55,320 bases of DNA from Pirellulales bacterium. GTDB taxonomy: Bacteria; Planctomycetota; Planctomycetia; Pirellulales; JADZDJ01. This document shows, piece after piece, positions 40,082 through 50,045 of the stretch (positions within the stretch are counted from its first letter, which is position 1; each line of letters starts with the position of its first letter). The notes below the pieces were generated by a model. That model worked only from the letters and a program-made list of their open reading frames with translations. It was not told the DNA's origin and searched no databases. The stretch spans positions 1-55,320 of the forward strand of contig DASRSD010000008.1 of assembly GCA_035656635.1 (NCBI GenBank). The letters are read 5' to 3'. The position numbers were made by a program, and so were the translations under genes.

Positions 40082-40852
40082 TTACAGTCGCCGAATGTGA
40101 AAACCGCCATCCACGTGAATTCGTTCCCCGGTGCTGAACGGAAACACATCGGCGACGATTGCCGACACGGCCTGCGCCACATCTTCCGGGCGTCCCCAGC
40201 GGCGAATAGGCGTTAACCCGCCGCTTATCAAGCGATCGTACTTTTCTTTCACCGCCGCGGTCATGTCGCTTTCAATAATGCCGGGACAAATTTCGAACAC
40301 GCCAATTTTCTCCTCCGCCAACCGCACCGCAAATAATTGCGTGAGCATCGGCAGCGCGGCTTTCGTCAGGCAATAGTCGCCACGGTCGGTCGAGACAGCG
40401 AATGCCGAGATTGACGAAATGTTGATGATTTTTCCTCCTGGCATTTTTCCAGCGCGGATGAGTTCCACCATTTTGTTCGCCGCCAACTGCGTCAGAAAAA
40501 AAGGGCCCTTCAAATTGGTGTTGAACACCTGGTCCCACGATGCTTCCGTCGCTTCCAACAAATCTTTTCGACCGGGTGACGTGATGCCCGCATTGTTGAC
40601 CAGCACATCCAATCGTCCGAATTGGCCGAGCATCGCCTCGACCAGCGCCGTCCGATCGGCCGCGAAGCCGACGTCTCCCTTCAATGCCACCGCCTGCCCG
40701 CCGCTATCGACAATTTCCTCAACCACTTTTTCTGCGCTGTCGGCCCGTGACGCGTAATTTACCCCAACGGCGTAGCCCGCGCGAGCCATTTCCCGGGCAA
40801 TGGCTCGGCCAATTCCGCGAGAACTGCCCGTCACTAACGCAGAAAGAGGCAT
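40082..40852 (-). CDS. Short-chain dehydrogenase/reductase, FabG-like
   Basis: 256 residues from ATG 40852 (a TTG at 40885 would add 11). NAD(P)-binding TGSSRGIG, NNAG, and the catalytic set Ser in ISSISAF and YCLTK (YxxxK) are all present. The end FSTGERIHVDGGFHI is classic for SDRs annotated as 3-ketoacyl-ACP reductase. The true substrate may be a sugar or ketone rather than an acyl chain. Confidence 0.88.
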   Translation of the reverse strand: MPLSALVTGSSRGIGRAIAREMARAGYAVGVNYASRADSAEKVVEEIVDSGGQAVALKGDVGFAADRTALVEAMLGQFGRLDVLVNNAGITSPGRKDLLEATEASWDQVFNTNLKGPFFLTQLAANKMVELIRAGKMPGGKIINISSISAFAVSTDRGDYCLTKAALPMLTQLFAVRLAEEKIGVFEICPGIIESDMTAAVKEKYDRLISGGLTPIRRWGRPEDVAQAVSAIVADVFPFSTGERIHVDGGFHIRRL

Positions 40853-41017
40853 AGAAATGCTGGATAAATCTGACGTTGTTGCCAAAAGCTAGCTTTGCTA
40901 TGCTAGCACGAAAGTGGCGGGCGCAAAAGAGACGGCGCTTGTTCGAACGACGACGGAGTTCGCTTCGTATTCGATGCAAGAAAGCCTGATGCAGCTTTTG
41001 ATCCAGGAGGGATGGCC

Positions 41018-45728: not shown

Positions 45729-46871
45729 TCAAGCGGCTTTGCGCGCCGCAGCCTGAGTTGCCAGCTCGTACACCATGGTTGCCACTTGCCAGGCGGCGTC
45801 AGGCCGCGCCAAGCGCAACATGGCCGATGACATTTTATTTCGCGCGCCACCGTCGGCCAGCAAATCGACCAACGTGTCGGCCAGCGCATCATCAAAGGGC
45901 ACCCCCGGCTGGCGCTCGTCAATCAGGCGTGCAGCTCCGGCCGAGCGAAATAATTCCGCATTGAGCCGTTGATGATCTTGCGCTGCGTGCGGATATGGCG
46001 CCAACACCGCCGGCACGCCGGTGGCCGCCAGTTCCGCCAAGGTGGAGCCGCCGGCACGGCAAACCGCCAAATCGCTTTGCCGCAACACTTGCGGTAGGTT
46101 GCGCACAAAGGGCACGACGAGTGCCTCGATCATCAATTTGCGATACAACTCGTCGGTGGCTGCCGCCTCGTGCGCGCCGGCCTGGTGCACAATTTGCCAG
46201 CCGGAGAGTTGATCGCGCAGCTTATACAGCGCTGGGGGGACAAATTCGTTCAACGCGTGCGCGCCGCCGCTCCCGCCCAAAATCAGCAATCGATGCCGCC
46301 AACCGTGGCGCGTTGCACGCCGGGCACGGTGAGCAGAAGTTCGTGGCCGGAAGCCCGCTCGCAGTGGATTTCCCGTCACTCGCACGGGACACACGGCGCG
46401 AAAGTGTTGCCGCGAATTCGGCCACGCGGCACAAATTAAATCGGCCCCCGCGGCCAGCCATCGGTTGGTTTTGCCCGGCAATACATTTTGCTCCAACAGC
46501 ACCAGCGGAATTCCCATGCTCCGCGCCGCCACACCCACGGGCAGGCTAACGTAGCCACCTAAGCCGACCACGACGTTGTACTTTCGCCGCTGTAAAAGAC
46601 GCCGCGCCGTTTGAAAGCCCACCACGTTCTGACCGACGAATCGCCACATGCCGCGCCATCCACCTGCGGCCGGGGCACTGCGCAGCGAAAGGTATTCCAA
46701 GCCCGCCTCGGCTACTAAGCGTTGTTCCAAAGGCCGGCCGCTTCCGGCGAAGGTCATCGCCGGGGCATCCGCCAGCGCGGCCAACTGCGCAGCCACGGCC
46801 AGCCCGGGAAATAAATGTCCCGCGGTGCCGCCGCCGGCGAACAGAATGTTAACTTTACTTGGCTTGGACAT
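45729..46871 (-). CDS. murG: UDP-GlcNAc:lipid I GlcNAc-transferase
   Basis: 380 residues from ATG 46871 (a frame from 46901 adds 10). Converts lipid I to lipid II at the inner face of the membrane. GT-B motifs: FAGGGTAGHLFPG, LGGYVSLPVGVAA, LEQNVLPGKTNRWLA, LGGSGGAHALNEF and CRAGGSTLAELAATGVP. It overlaps mraY by 17 bases. Confidence 0.95.
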   Translation of the reverse strand: MSKPSKVNILFAGGGTAGHLFPGLAVAAQLAALADAPAMTFAGSGRPLEQRLVAEAGLEYLSLRSAPAAGGWRGMWRFVGQNVVGFQTARRLLQRRKYNVVVGLGGYVSLPVGVAARSMGIPLVLLEQNVLPGKTNRWLAAGADLICAAWPNSRQHFRAVCPVRVTGNPLRAGFRPRTSAHRARRATRHGWRHRLLILGGSGGAHALNEFVPPALYKLRDQLSGWQIVHQAGAHEAAATDELYRKLMIEALVVPFVRNLPQVLRQSDLAVCRAGGSTLAELAATGVPAVLAPYPHAAQDHQRLNAELFRSAGAARLIDERQPGVPFDDALADTLVDLLADGGARNKMSSAMLRLARPDAAWQVATMVYELATQAAARKAA

Positions 46872-48057
46872 CGCTTTCCACGACATGGTTTGCGAATCCA
46901 AGTTCGCGCGCCGCGATATTTTCGCCGGTCGATGGCGCTCGGGATTCCTCGCTGCGGTTCATTTTCATTACGCCCAGCGCCACCAGGGCGCACAGCATCG
47001 ACACAATCCAAAACCGCGTCACAATTTTGTTTTCCGCCCAGCCCACCAGTTGAAAGTGATGGTGCAGCGGCGCACAACGAAAAATACGCCGGCCGCGCAG
47101 GCGGCACGAAGCAACTTGCAGAATCACACTGCCTGCTTCGGCCACAAACACGGCCCCCACGATCAACAGCAGCAATTCCTGTCGGGCGACCACGGCCAGC
47201 AATCCCAAAGTGCCCCCCAGCGCCAGCGAGCCGGTATCGCCCATGAACACTTGCGCCGGTTGGCAATTGAACCACAAAAATCCCAGCGTTCCCCCGATCA
47301 TGGCGCCGGCAATGACAACGGTTTCCCCAGCGGCAGGAATATGTGCCACGCCCAAGTAACCGGCCCAATCGGCGTGACCGGCCACATAGGCCATGATGGC
47401 CATGGCCGCCGTCGTGGTGAGCAAGCATCCTCCGGCCAATCCATCCAGCCCGTCGGTCAAATTCACGGCGTTGGAACTGGCCACAATCACTAGCATGGTC
47501 AGCGGCACAAACCAAATACCTAGCGGCACACTTGCACACAGCAAGGGAATTTGTAAATCGGCGCCGCCGGGCACATCGTGCTGCACGGCATACATCCAGC
47601 AGGCGATCAATCCCGCCACGGCGAATTGCGCTGCCAATTTGGTGCGCGCGGTCAATCCACGGCCGGCGCCCGATAATTTTTTGAGATCGTCCAGCGCGCC
47701 AATCGTGGCCAAGGCGATTAAGTTCACGATCAAAATCGGCACGTAGCTGTTCTTCCAGTTGCCAAGCAAAACGGCGGCCGCCACAATGCCGGCGACTAAA
47801 AACAATCCACCCATGGTCGGCGTGGCGGCTTTGTGGCGATGCAACTGGCTCAGTTCGGCCGACCGTTGGTTGGGCGGCTCACGGAAGCGATTACGCAGCC
47901 AGGCAATGACGTGCGGTCCTAATAACACGGCCAGGATGAAGCTGGCCAAGGCTGCCAGCGCCGTGCGGAACGTGATTTTGCCAAACCCGGTTTGCATGGC
48001 GGACCACGGCGTTCCGGTCCACCAGGTTGCGAATTGATCGACGAGCCAAACGAGCAT
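46855..48057 (-). CDS. mraY: Phospho-MurNAc-pentapeptide transferase
   Basis: 400 residues, about ten membrane helices. Transfers phospho-MurNAc-pentapeptide to undecaprenyl phosphate, making lipid I. Active-site marks: HKAATPTMGGL, DDLKK (Asp pair), NAVNLTDGLDGLAGG, VFMGDTGSLALGG and APLHHHFQL. The C-terminal 35 residues are extra and polar. Upstream is the 522-base noncoding patch. Confidence 0.97.
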   Translation of the reverse strand: MLVWLVDQFATWWTGTPWSAMQTGFGKITFRTALAALASFILAVLLGPHVIAWLRNRFREPPNQRSAELSQLHRHKAATPTMGGLFLVAGIVAAAVLLGNWKNSYVPILIVNLIALATIGALDDLKKLSGAGRGLTARTKLAAQFAVAGLIACWMYAVQHDVPGGADLQIPLLCASVPLGIWFVPLTMLVIVASSNAVNLTDGLDGLAGGCLLTTTAAMAIMAYVAGHADWAGYLGVAHIPAAGETVVIAGAMIGGTLGFLWFNCQPAQVFMGDTGSLALGGTLGLLAVVARQELLLLIVGAVFVAEAGSVILQVASCRLRGRRIFRCAPLHHHFQLVGWAENKIVTRFWIVSMLCALVALGVMKMNRSEESRAPSTGENIAARELGFANHVVESDVQAK

Positions 48058-48090
48058 AATTCGTCATTTCATTCGTCATTTCAGCTGCCT

Positions 48091-48112
48091 CCGGAGGCAA
48101 GTGTGCCTCCGG
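48091..48112. repeat. Hairpin in the mraY leader
   Basis: CCGGAGGCA-AGTG-TGCCTCCGG: perfect 9-bp stem, 4-base loop, 34 bases upstream of the mraY ATG on the minus strand. The stem contains GGAGG on either strand, so it could mask or mimic a ribosome-binding site. Confidence 0.55.
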
Positions 48113-48138
48113 CTATCCGTAACCACTAATCTCTAGCC

Positions 48139-48194
48139 CTAGCCACTAACCCCTAGCCACTAACCCCTAGCCACTAACCGCTAGCCACTAACCG
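48139..48194. repeat. Four tandem copies of a 14-bp unit
   Basis: CTAGCCACTAACCC twice (48139-48152, 48153-48166), then CTAGCCACTAACCG twice (48167-48180, 48181-48194). A decayed copy precedes (48121-48138). No spacer is present, so it is not a CRISPR array. Confidence 0.95.
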
Positions 48195-48202
48195 CTTGTT
48201 CC

Positions 48203-48243
48203 CTGAGTCGTCGGAGCGGCGTTGCCGCCGCTCCGACGCTCAG
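48203..48243. repeat. Large GC-rich hairpin
   Basis: Core arms GTCGGAGCGGC (48210-48220) and GCCGCTCCGAC (48227-48237), extended by one pair and, past a one-base bulge at 48208, by CTGAG/CTCAG. About 17 pairs with a 6-base loop. It may be a transcript end after murF, but no T-run follows on the minus strand. Confidence 0.75.
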
Positions 48244-48246
48244 TCT

Positions 48247-48374
48247 TGGCTCCGTCGCGAAGCACTTGCCCGCGCAATTGACCCAGAAACTGCGCCAGAC
48301 AAGTTAATCACTCCTACCCAGGAGGGAGGGTAGCGCCTCGGTTCCCGCAAACTTTGGCGCAGCGGACGGAGCCA
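48247..48374. repeat. Nested inverted-repeat structure
   Basis: Outer arms GGCTCCGTC (48248-48256) and GACGGAGCC (48365-48373), plus one flanking pair; inner arms CTGCGCCA (48290-48297) and TGGCGCAG (48355-48362), continued by AAGTT/AACTT past a 3-base bulge; innermost CTACCC (48314-48319) and GGGTAG (48328-48333). All arms are collinear and nested, which supports one folded RNA or a small mobile-element-like unit. Confidence 0.55.
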
Positions 48375-48460
48375 CAACTTGGATTGTTCCTTCGAGGTGA
48401 AGAGATGGGGAAGTGAGAACTCACGCGCTCACTGCCTCATCTGTTCACCATTCACGTCAT

Positions 48461-48578
48461 CACTCGCTCAGCACCTCGCTCCGCTTGCGCGTCGCGGCTA
48501 AACATCGATTCACTCATCACCCGCTCATGTCTTCACTTGCTCAGCACCGCGCTCCGCTTGCGCGTCGCGGCTAAACAC
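48461..48578. repeat. Pair of 45-bp direct repeats
   Basis: 48461-48505 and 48534-48578 agree at 42 of 45 positions; the shared core is CGCTCCGCTTGCGCGTCGCG followed by GCTAAACA. The 28 bases between are rich in CTCA and TCAC phrases. Confidence 0.9.
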
Positions 48579-48579
48579 T

Positions 48580-49980
48580 TCACGCTGCGCGCCGCAAATT
48601 TTCACTACGAATCGCCTCCACCACGCGCTCCAAACCCATGGCCCGCGAACCCTTCACCAACACGGCACTGCCCGGCTGCGTGAGGTACTTGGCCAGCGAA
48701 ATGGTTTCTTCCATCGCCTGGCAGGCGGTTGCCCGCGCACTGGGCATGCCTGCGGCTCGGGCGGCAATTACCACGTCGTTGGCATGATCTCCGCAGGCGA
48801 TGAGCCGATCGGCCCCGCACCGCGTAACTACTTCCTCGCCAATCTGCCGGTGCCATTGCCGGCTGGCGGCGCCCAATTCCTTCATGTCGCCGCACACCAC
48901 CACCCGCTCTCCCGGCGCATCCACTTCGCGCAGCAGCTCCAGTGCCGCCCGCATGGCCGAGGGACTGGCGTTGTACGAATCGTCGATCACTTTCACGCCC
49001 GCTTCGTCGGTCACCTGGCAGCGCATGGAGGGTGGTTGAAAACCCGCCAGGGCGGCCGCAATTTCCGCGGGCGACATTCCGAATTCCAGTCCCACGGCAA
49101 TGGCCGCCAGTGCCGAAGTCAAATGATGCCGACCCCAAACGGCCACTTCGTAGTTCTGCCGATCGACACGAAATTGCAAACGGCCGCCGGCCGAGCGCAC
49201 CTCGGAGGCGGACAAATCACAATTCGGTCCACGGCCCGTCCAAACAACTCTTCCGGCGCAGCGGTGACGCATTTGTCGCTGCCACGGATCATCGCGGTTA
49301 AGCACCGCCAGGCCGTCCTGTGGCAGGGCTTCCAGCAATTCCGCCTTGGCGGCGGCCAATTGCTGCTGATTACCGAAGCCGCCCAAGTGGGCTTCGCCAA
49401 TTCGCGTGATGATGCCAATTTGCGGCCGGCACAGCTTGGCCAGCTCGGCAATTTCGCCTGGCGCACTAGCGCCCAGCTCTAAAGCGGCGTATTGGTGTTC
49501 GCGCTCCAGCCGCAGCAAGCTGAGCGGAACGCCAATGTTGTTGTTGTAGTTGTGCGGACTGGTCGTGCCGGAAAACTTGCTCTGCAGCACAGTGTCAATC
49601 ATCAGCCGGGTGGTCGTTTTTCCCACGCTGCCAGTAACGGCCACCACCTTTCCGACAAACTGCCGCCGCTGCCAGGCCGCCAGCGATTGCAGCGCTTTCA
49701 AGCCGTCTTCCACGCGCAACGACCAACGACCCGCCCACGGCTCCACGTTCCGGCCGGCCACCACCACGCCCGATGCGCCGCGCACCAGCGCATCTTCTGC
49801 GAAGCAAGAGCCGTCGAAGCGTGGGCCCGTTAAGCCCCAAAACACCATCTCGGCCTGGATCCGGCGACTATCGGTAACAATTGGACCCACGTGCGTCGTT
49901 TCGCCGTGGCGCGGCGGCATCGCCGCTAACCGCAGTTGGCCGCCGGTAATTTCTCGAAGTTGCGCCAGAGTTAATACCAT
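48580..49980 (-). CDS. murF: UDP-MurNAc-tripeptide--D-Ala-D-Ala ligase
   Basis: 466 residues from ATG 49980 (MVLTLAQLREITGG); the frame runs up to 50034, but those 18 residues are encoded by a 22-bp tandem repeat and are unlikely to be protein. Adds D-Ala-D-Ala to complete the pentapeptide. P-loop is TGSVGKTTT (near 117), then HNYNNNIGVP, ALELGASAPGEI, NRDDPW and DDSYNASPSAMRAAL. Confidence 0.95.
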   Translation of the reverse strand: MVLTLAQLREITGGQLRLAAMPPRHGETTHVGPIVTDSRRIQAEMVFWGLTGPRFDGSCFAEDALVRGASGVVVAGRNVEPWAGRWSLRVEDGLKALQSLAAWQRRQFVGKVVAVTGSVGKTTTRLMIDTVLQSKFSGTTSPHNYNNNIGVPLSLLRLEREHQYAALELGASAPGEIAELAKLCRPQIGIITRIGEAHLGGFGNQQQLAAAKAELLEALPQDGLAVLNRDDPWQRQMRHRCAGRVVWTGRGPNCDLSASEVRSAGGRLQFRVDRQNYEVAVWGRHHLTSALAAIAVGLEFGMSPAEIAAALAGFQPPSMRCQVTDEAGVKVIDDSYNASPSAMRAALELLREVDAPGERVVVCGDMKELGAASRQWHRQIGEEVVTRCGADRLIACGDHANDVVIAARAAGMPSARATACQAMEETISLAKYLTQPGSAVLVKGSRAMGLERVVEAIRSENLRRAA

Positions 49981-49988
49981 GATTTTTG

Positions 49989-50045
49989 ATCCATCAACTG
50001 CCGAAATCGCATCCATCAATTGCCGAAATCGCATCCATCAATTGC
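49989..50045. repeat. 22-bp tandem repeat before murF
   Basis: ATCCATCAACTGCCGAAATC+GC (49989-50010), a second copy with one change (50011-50032) and a 13-base partial copy (50033-50045). It fills most of the gap between the murE stop and the murF ATG. Confidence 0.93.

Follow-up and report, generated by a model that had tools for sequence, protein, structure and literature searches.

Bacterial small RNAs derived from 3′ untranslated regions form a general class of sRNAs located close behind coding genes. For an RNA set within a cell-wall gene cluster, the nearest precedent is UpsM of the Rhodobacteraceae, which passages of its report describe as an RNA of ~200 nt in the dcw cluster, with an intrinsic terminator and a reported action in trans (PMC5089854). 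From the Planctomycetes, the passages of a second report that deal with the Rhodopirellula-1 motif present a candidate structured RNA, marked with a question mark as an RNA, thought to be probably cis-regulatory, also present in Proteobacteria and given no Rfam number in the table (PMC2864571).

We analysed a 55,320-nucleotide stretch of a Pirellulales genome (the window), in which the mur genes all lie on the minus strand in the order murE, murF, gap, mraY, murG, murC, murB, ddl. The gap (48058-48579, 522 bases) is flanked by murF (48580-50034, minus strand; TIGR01143 murF, 389.9 bits for a cut-off of 288.6), directly upstream of the RNA described below, and by mraY (46855-48057, minus strand; TIGR00445 mraY, 326.3 bits for a cut-off of 192.05), downstream of it. 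This RNA resembles UpsM in being embedded in a cell-wall gene cluster; it differs in that UpsM, which has been demonstrated experimentally, is part of the 5′ leader ahead of mraZ, whereas the present RNA follows murE/murF and belongs to another phylum, the two being compared by description and not by sequence (PMC5089854). It resembles the 3′-UTR-derived sRNAs in its position close behind a coding gene, in the lack of a promoter signal in the mur-linked set and in the terminator-like hairpin that part of the loci carry, and differs from them in being a large multi-helix fold spread over at least two families, the release of which from the mRNA is a proposal. Rhodopirellula-1 shares with it the description as a candidate structured RNA from Planctomycetes and differs in its listing as probably cis-regulatory and as present in Proteobacteria too; it may or may not be the same RNA (PMC2864571).

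No match to Rfam 15 was found in the window at the gathering score; relaxing the search to E <= 10 over 48000-48650 brought up 13 matches, none of which reached gathering, and 20 related loci gave none at E <= 1. Three candidates were rejected: 6S RNA (RF00013), which matches in 3 of 20 genomes on contigs other than that of the RNA and has no match in the window's own genome; SRP RNA (RF00169), with matches in 20 of 20 genomes, that of the window's genome being on another contig (C67); and tRNA or tmRNA, of which ARAGORN found none in the window. Searches of open-access papers yielded no description of the RNA, subscription papers, preprints and supplements being outside the scope of the search.

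Fold, strand and distribution of the RNA

A sequence-only reading of the window had singled out the murF–mraY gap as a composite patch of five repeat types packed into 522 bases. All five are present, but they do not form a single class: the patch is two unlike things, a conserved RNA, to which two of the five types belong, and lineage-specific repeats. The same reading had the other mur genes overlapping or nearly touching, which is mostly the case, the exception seen being murG and murC, which are 168 bases apart. The murE–murF junction and the start of the murF open reading frame are spanned by a 22-bp tandem repeat (2.6 copies, 49989-50045), so the annotated murF start may be too far upstream.

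When the patch was searched against 57 genomes (its own included), a block at about positions 140-325 of the query was matched, typically at one place per genome, with an identity of 93% within the genus, 81% within the family and ~70-80% across numerous further families of the order; long cross-genome matches mostly end at the flanking repeats. The block corresponds to 48197-48373 of the window and contains both the hairpin and the nested inverted repeat. The earlier suggestion of a regulatory RNA region is borne out to the extent that a conserved RNA lies here; its regulatory role is putative.

The RNA (177 nt, minus strand; 171.1 bits with our covariance model R1) consists of a core domain, P1–P4, with near-invariant loops (48248-48373, coordinates mapped on the window copy), and a 3′ hairpin, P5 (48203-48243), all helices being on the minus strand. 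P1 (10 pairs, 48364-48373/48248-48257) closes a junction from which arise P2a (48357-48360/48333-48336) and P2b (48349-48353/48340-48344), P3 (48328-48331/48316-48319) and the long arm formed by the P4 helices (48288-48314/48259-48279). The nested inverted repeat, whose arms (48242-48256/48365-48379) are 87% complementary, turns out to be the closing helix of this branched fold. The 17-pair hairpin of the sequence-only reading is P5: it has 13-bp perfect arms (48209-48221/48226-48238) and a longer helix supported by covariation (48203-48220 with 48227-48243), with 16 covariation-tested pairs. P5 is missing or altered in some members of f21, a second family of the class. In the window copy, P3 carries the loop UCCCUCCU and P5 ends in CUCAGGGAACA; the P2 loop is GCGG, within UUGCGGGA, and that of P4 contains CUGGGUC. 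In a plain MAFFT alignment, all 25 sequences agree in the columns UGCGGG, CUCCUGGG and CUGGGUC. A CUCCU loop would, in sequence, complement ribosome-binding sites of the type AGGAG; it is absent from the f21 members examined and therefore cannot be the whole story.

The minus strand of the patch folds better than 100 of 100 dinucleotide shuffles (z -4.56). On the plain alignment (A1, 25 of 29 rows; a truncated sequence (L031), a near-duplicate (L042) and two divergent ones (L044 and L045) were omitted), RNAalifold predicted 59 pairs, 41 of which show at least one two-sided change. A larger alignment of 41 sequences was fitted to R1, which makes the plain one the more independent test; R1 itself gave 41 matches at E <= 1e-6 over 42 sources, with L104 outside the cut-off. 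Seven weak matches from another search, antisense to the main match, were set aside. In the 41-sequence alignment, 97.5% of the cells in the 59 pairs are standard pairs and 51 of the 59 pairs change on both sides; sliding the partners by 1-3 columns lowered the paired fraction to 39-44%, and none of 500 shuffles of this alignment reached any of five measures. The window copy forms 57 of the 59 consensus pairs. G-U cells greatly outnumber A-C cells in the paired columns (268 vs 18), which places the RNA on the murF strand. A protein-coding origin was rejected: the 41 relatives have lengths that fall into all three classes modulo 3 (14, 16 and 11), and hence there is no shared reading frame.

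The RNA has a single match in each of 89 of the 117 genomes of the order, that is about three quarters. The other 28 gave no match, and 20 of these, re-searched with looser filters, still gave none; nine of the 20 belong to one family (f8). In a sample of 39 genomes of the class, 17 matched (8 of 8 in the order, 8 of 9 in f21 and 1 of 3 in f113), and three further families gave 0 of 9, 0 of 9 and 0 of 1. A phylum sample of 294 genomes yielded nine matches, all within the class, its negatives being weak since nine candidates were scored per genome, and a pattern scan of a collection of species genomes returned 30 stretches, all from planctomycetes, several of them Pirellulales. In f21, all 11 genomes where the RNA was found have it between murF and mraY, and this position is therefore probably ancestral. 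Compensatory structure, a strand of its own and a single-copy gene, three of the marks expected of an independent sRNA, were found.

Repeats flanking the RNA

The remaining elements of the patch are of another kind. A 14-bp tandem array (48137-48193) has 4.1 copies with 97% matches (score 107), in agreement with the units first noticed; it is itself foldable (-22.3 kcal/mol). The two direct repeats described as 45 bp long are there, although a little longer: two copies of 53 nt (48452-48504 and 48525-48577), 92% identical. A 27-bp palindromic repeat beginning with GCCTCCGG occupies 48087-48113, and a 12-bp tandem repeat (2.1 copies, 48059-48083) adjoins the mraY start. By eye, a degenerate, RTGA-rich stretch of period 7/8 can also be seen on the minus strand at 48394-48450, between the RNA and the direct repeats.

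A BLAST search with the patch as query returned 43 matches in its own genome. The genome-wide search of the sub-repeats that had been suggested located the core of the direct repeats at 32 sites (<=3 mismatches; control 0) and a 26-mer of the 14-bp array at eight sites, three of them overlapping within the array (control 0); the exact palindrome is unique within 3 mismatches, and diverged relatives of it are present elsewhere. We read the array, the 53-bp repeats and the palindrome as dispersed repeats. The 53-bp repeat is short, dispersed and multicopy, as REP elements are. Many copies of this REP-like repeat (48452-48577) were also noticed in two relatives (G021 and G046), and the repeat family is thus not limited to the genus of the window.

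The flanking repeats resemble REP elements with RAYT transposases in being short, GC-rich and dispersed, in a genome with 13 matches to Y1_Tnp (IS200/RAYT-type transposase). They differ in that the motif lies within ~1.5 kb of just 1 of the 8 Y1 loci examined among these 13 places, a weak adjacency, and in that the conserved tetranucleotide is not established.

The patch had also been proposed to be a landing zone for miniature mobile elements. This holds for the flanks, with their 32 REP-like and eight array sites, and fails for the core (48197-48373). Extended to the whole patch, with the RNA-like part included, the proposal is extremely improbable: the core gives a single match in each matching genome, which led us to reject a mobile-element origin for it, and it is conserved and covarying across the order. 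Unique occurrence and unconserved arms, which would have refuted the sequence-only reading, were not what was observed, the arms being conserved and covarying. The tandem array and the REP-like repeats would be later insertions around the RNA, as part of an explanation that we hold, taken as a whole, to be moderately probable and that is set out in the next section.

Neighbouring genes and predicted transcript ends

The neighbours of the RNA were mapped for all 89 matching genomes of the order. Of the 88 genomes with enough upstream sequence, 73 carry murE or murF on the strand of the RNA, no more than 350 nt upstream, with a median gap of 97 nt (L260, with 92 bases upstream, was excluded from this count, and in L136 the upstream gene was set manually to murF, gap 91, which the overlap filter had hidden). 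The 15 exceptions without a nearby ligase are 14 genomes of one family, f16, and a weak match (L269). Family f16 thus keeps the RNA away from mur genes; in one of its genomes a murE match lies 2 kb away. Since the Mur ligase is the most constant neighbour, the RNA might act in cis, as part of the 3′ untranslated region, to protect the murE/murF mRNA or to process it. We consider this quite improbable: the 14 f16 genomes keep the RNA although the 350 nt upstream of it hold no Mur ligase gene, and the conserved core is perhaps larger than a stability element would need. As a separate observation, several f16 genomes carry, downstream of the moved RNA, relatives of a window gene located ~7 kb from the RNA (40082-40885); such relatives are found at L140, L252, L262, L265, L274 and L275, the first of which matches short-chain dehydrogenases.

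On the downstream side, the next gene is mraY (21), murG (22) or murB (5) in 48 of the 63 genomes that combine an adjacent ligase with 1 kb or more of downstream sequence (two of those labelled murG, L109 and L123, carry mraY in between). This is what a cis element predicts, and it counts against our own explanation: the RNA could be a riboswitch-like leader or attenuator that sets the expression of whichever of these genes comes next. The hairpin following P5 would then be its terminator, and the near-invariant loops, which resemble an aptamer core, are a further point in its favour. In the other 15 of the 63, the RNA is kept with no recognised peptidoglycan gene downstream, and several of them have a gene on the opposite strand next. 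Pfam searches of their downstream open reading frames identified GidB, an ABC transporter, a gene with a Mur-ligase domain, a GXGXG protein, an ATPase, an aminotransferase, a cytidylyltransferase and a transposase; some frames gave no Pfam match and could be a very divergent peptidoglycan gene. The control of lipid I synthesis originally envisaged is therefore one option only, as these 15 genomes and the displaced RNA of f16 both indicate.

The search for transcript ends bears on the same question. A terminator-like hairpin with a T-run lies within 85 nt behind the RNA in 17 of the 48 genomes with a downstream peptidoglycan gene (1.4 expected from shuffles), in 4 of the 15 with none recognised (0.6 expected) and in 11 of the 14 of the moved f16 set (0.7 expected); an earlier count on 52 loci had given 22. 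The window copy has no terminator-like hairpin behind the RNA; a relative of the same genus (L105) has one, and in the window the 14-bp array occupies its spot. At 72 mur-linked loci, no sigma-70-like promoter was found above shuffles (mean 7.85 vs 7.94), and high-scoring ones numbered 0 for 3.5 expected; these scores do not support a promoter in the mur-linked set. The RNA there probably rides the murE–murF transcript. In the f16 set, a pair of boxes can be aligned upstream, and promoter scores are modest (8.75 vs 8.32 for shuffles); in this family the RNA appears to be free-standing. The 45 nt upstream of the RNA show weak A-rich conservation at most (33 loci), and a conserved 5′ leader was accordingly rejected.

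A cis leader should decay after the loss of its downstream gene, yet the RNA is kept in 15 of 63 genomes and in f16, which makes a trans-acting RNA the better fit. Our preferred reading is therefore a trans-acting non-coding RNA released from the mur transcript, rather than a leader of mraY; a cis-acting leader in general we regard as possible but rather unlikely. The hairpins between RNA and gene, well above expectation, speak for the leader, and it counts against it that no antiterminator pairing was noticed, short of a systematic search for one. More precisely, we hold it moderately probable that the minus strand of 48197-48373 encodes a new Planctomycetota family of structured non-coding RNA of ~180 nt, freed from the mur transcript and acting in trans. 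In the usual arrangement, the RNA would be transcribed together with murE–murF; in some genomes the transcript would end close to an intrinsic terminator that immediately follows P5; and the RNA, once freed as a separate stable transcript, would act in trans on its partners through the near-invariant loops. Besides the downstream genes, other observations count against this explanation: the mur-linked set has no promoter signal above shuffles, the scores being modest even in f16, and carries terminator-like hairpins in a minority of genomes, the window not among them, and 28 of the 117 genomes of the order have no match.

The two modes could also be combined in a class-wide mur-operon RNA, the fold sensing a peptidoglycan intermediate and setting read-through into mraY/murG while the released RNA acts in trans. 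We give this dual reading a low probability; if true, the RNA would link the synthesis of cell-wall precursors with the rest of cell physiology.

Significance for the Planctomycetota

Planctomycetota divide in an unusual manner and have a cell wall that has long been disputed. Few sRNAs are annotated in their wider group: the relevant part of one account lists eight for the whole PVC group (PMC9029176). The RNA, strongly covarying, with one copy per matching genome, mur-linked in at least two families and with no match in Rfam 15, is a further RNA family for a group in which few have been annotated. A conserved RNA in a cell-wall operon offers a direct handle on the control of the peptidoglycan pathway in Planctomycetota.
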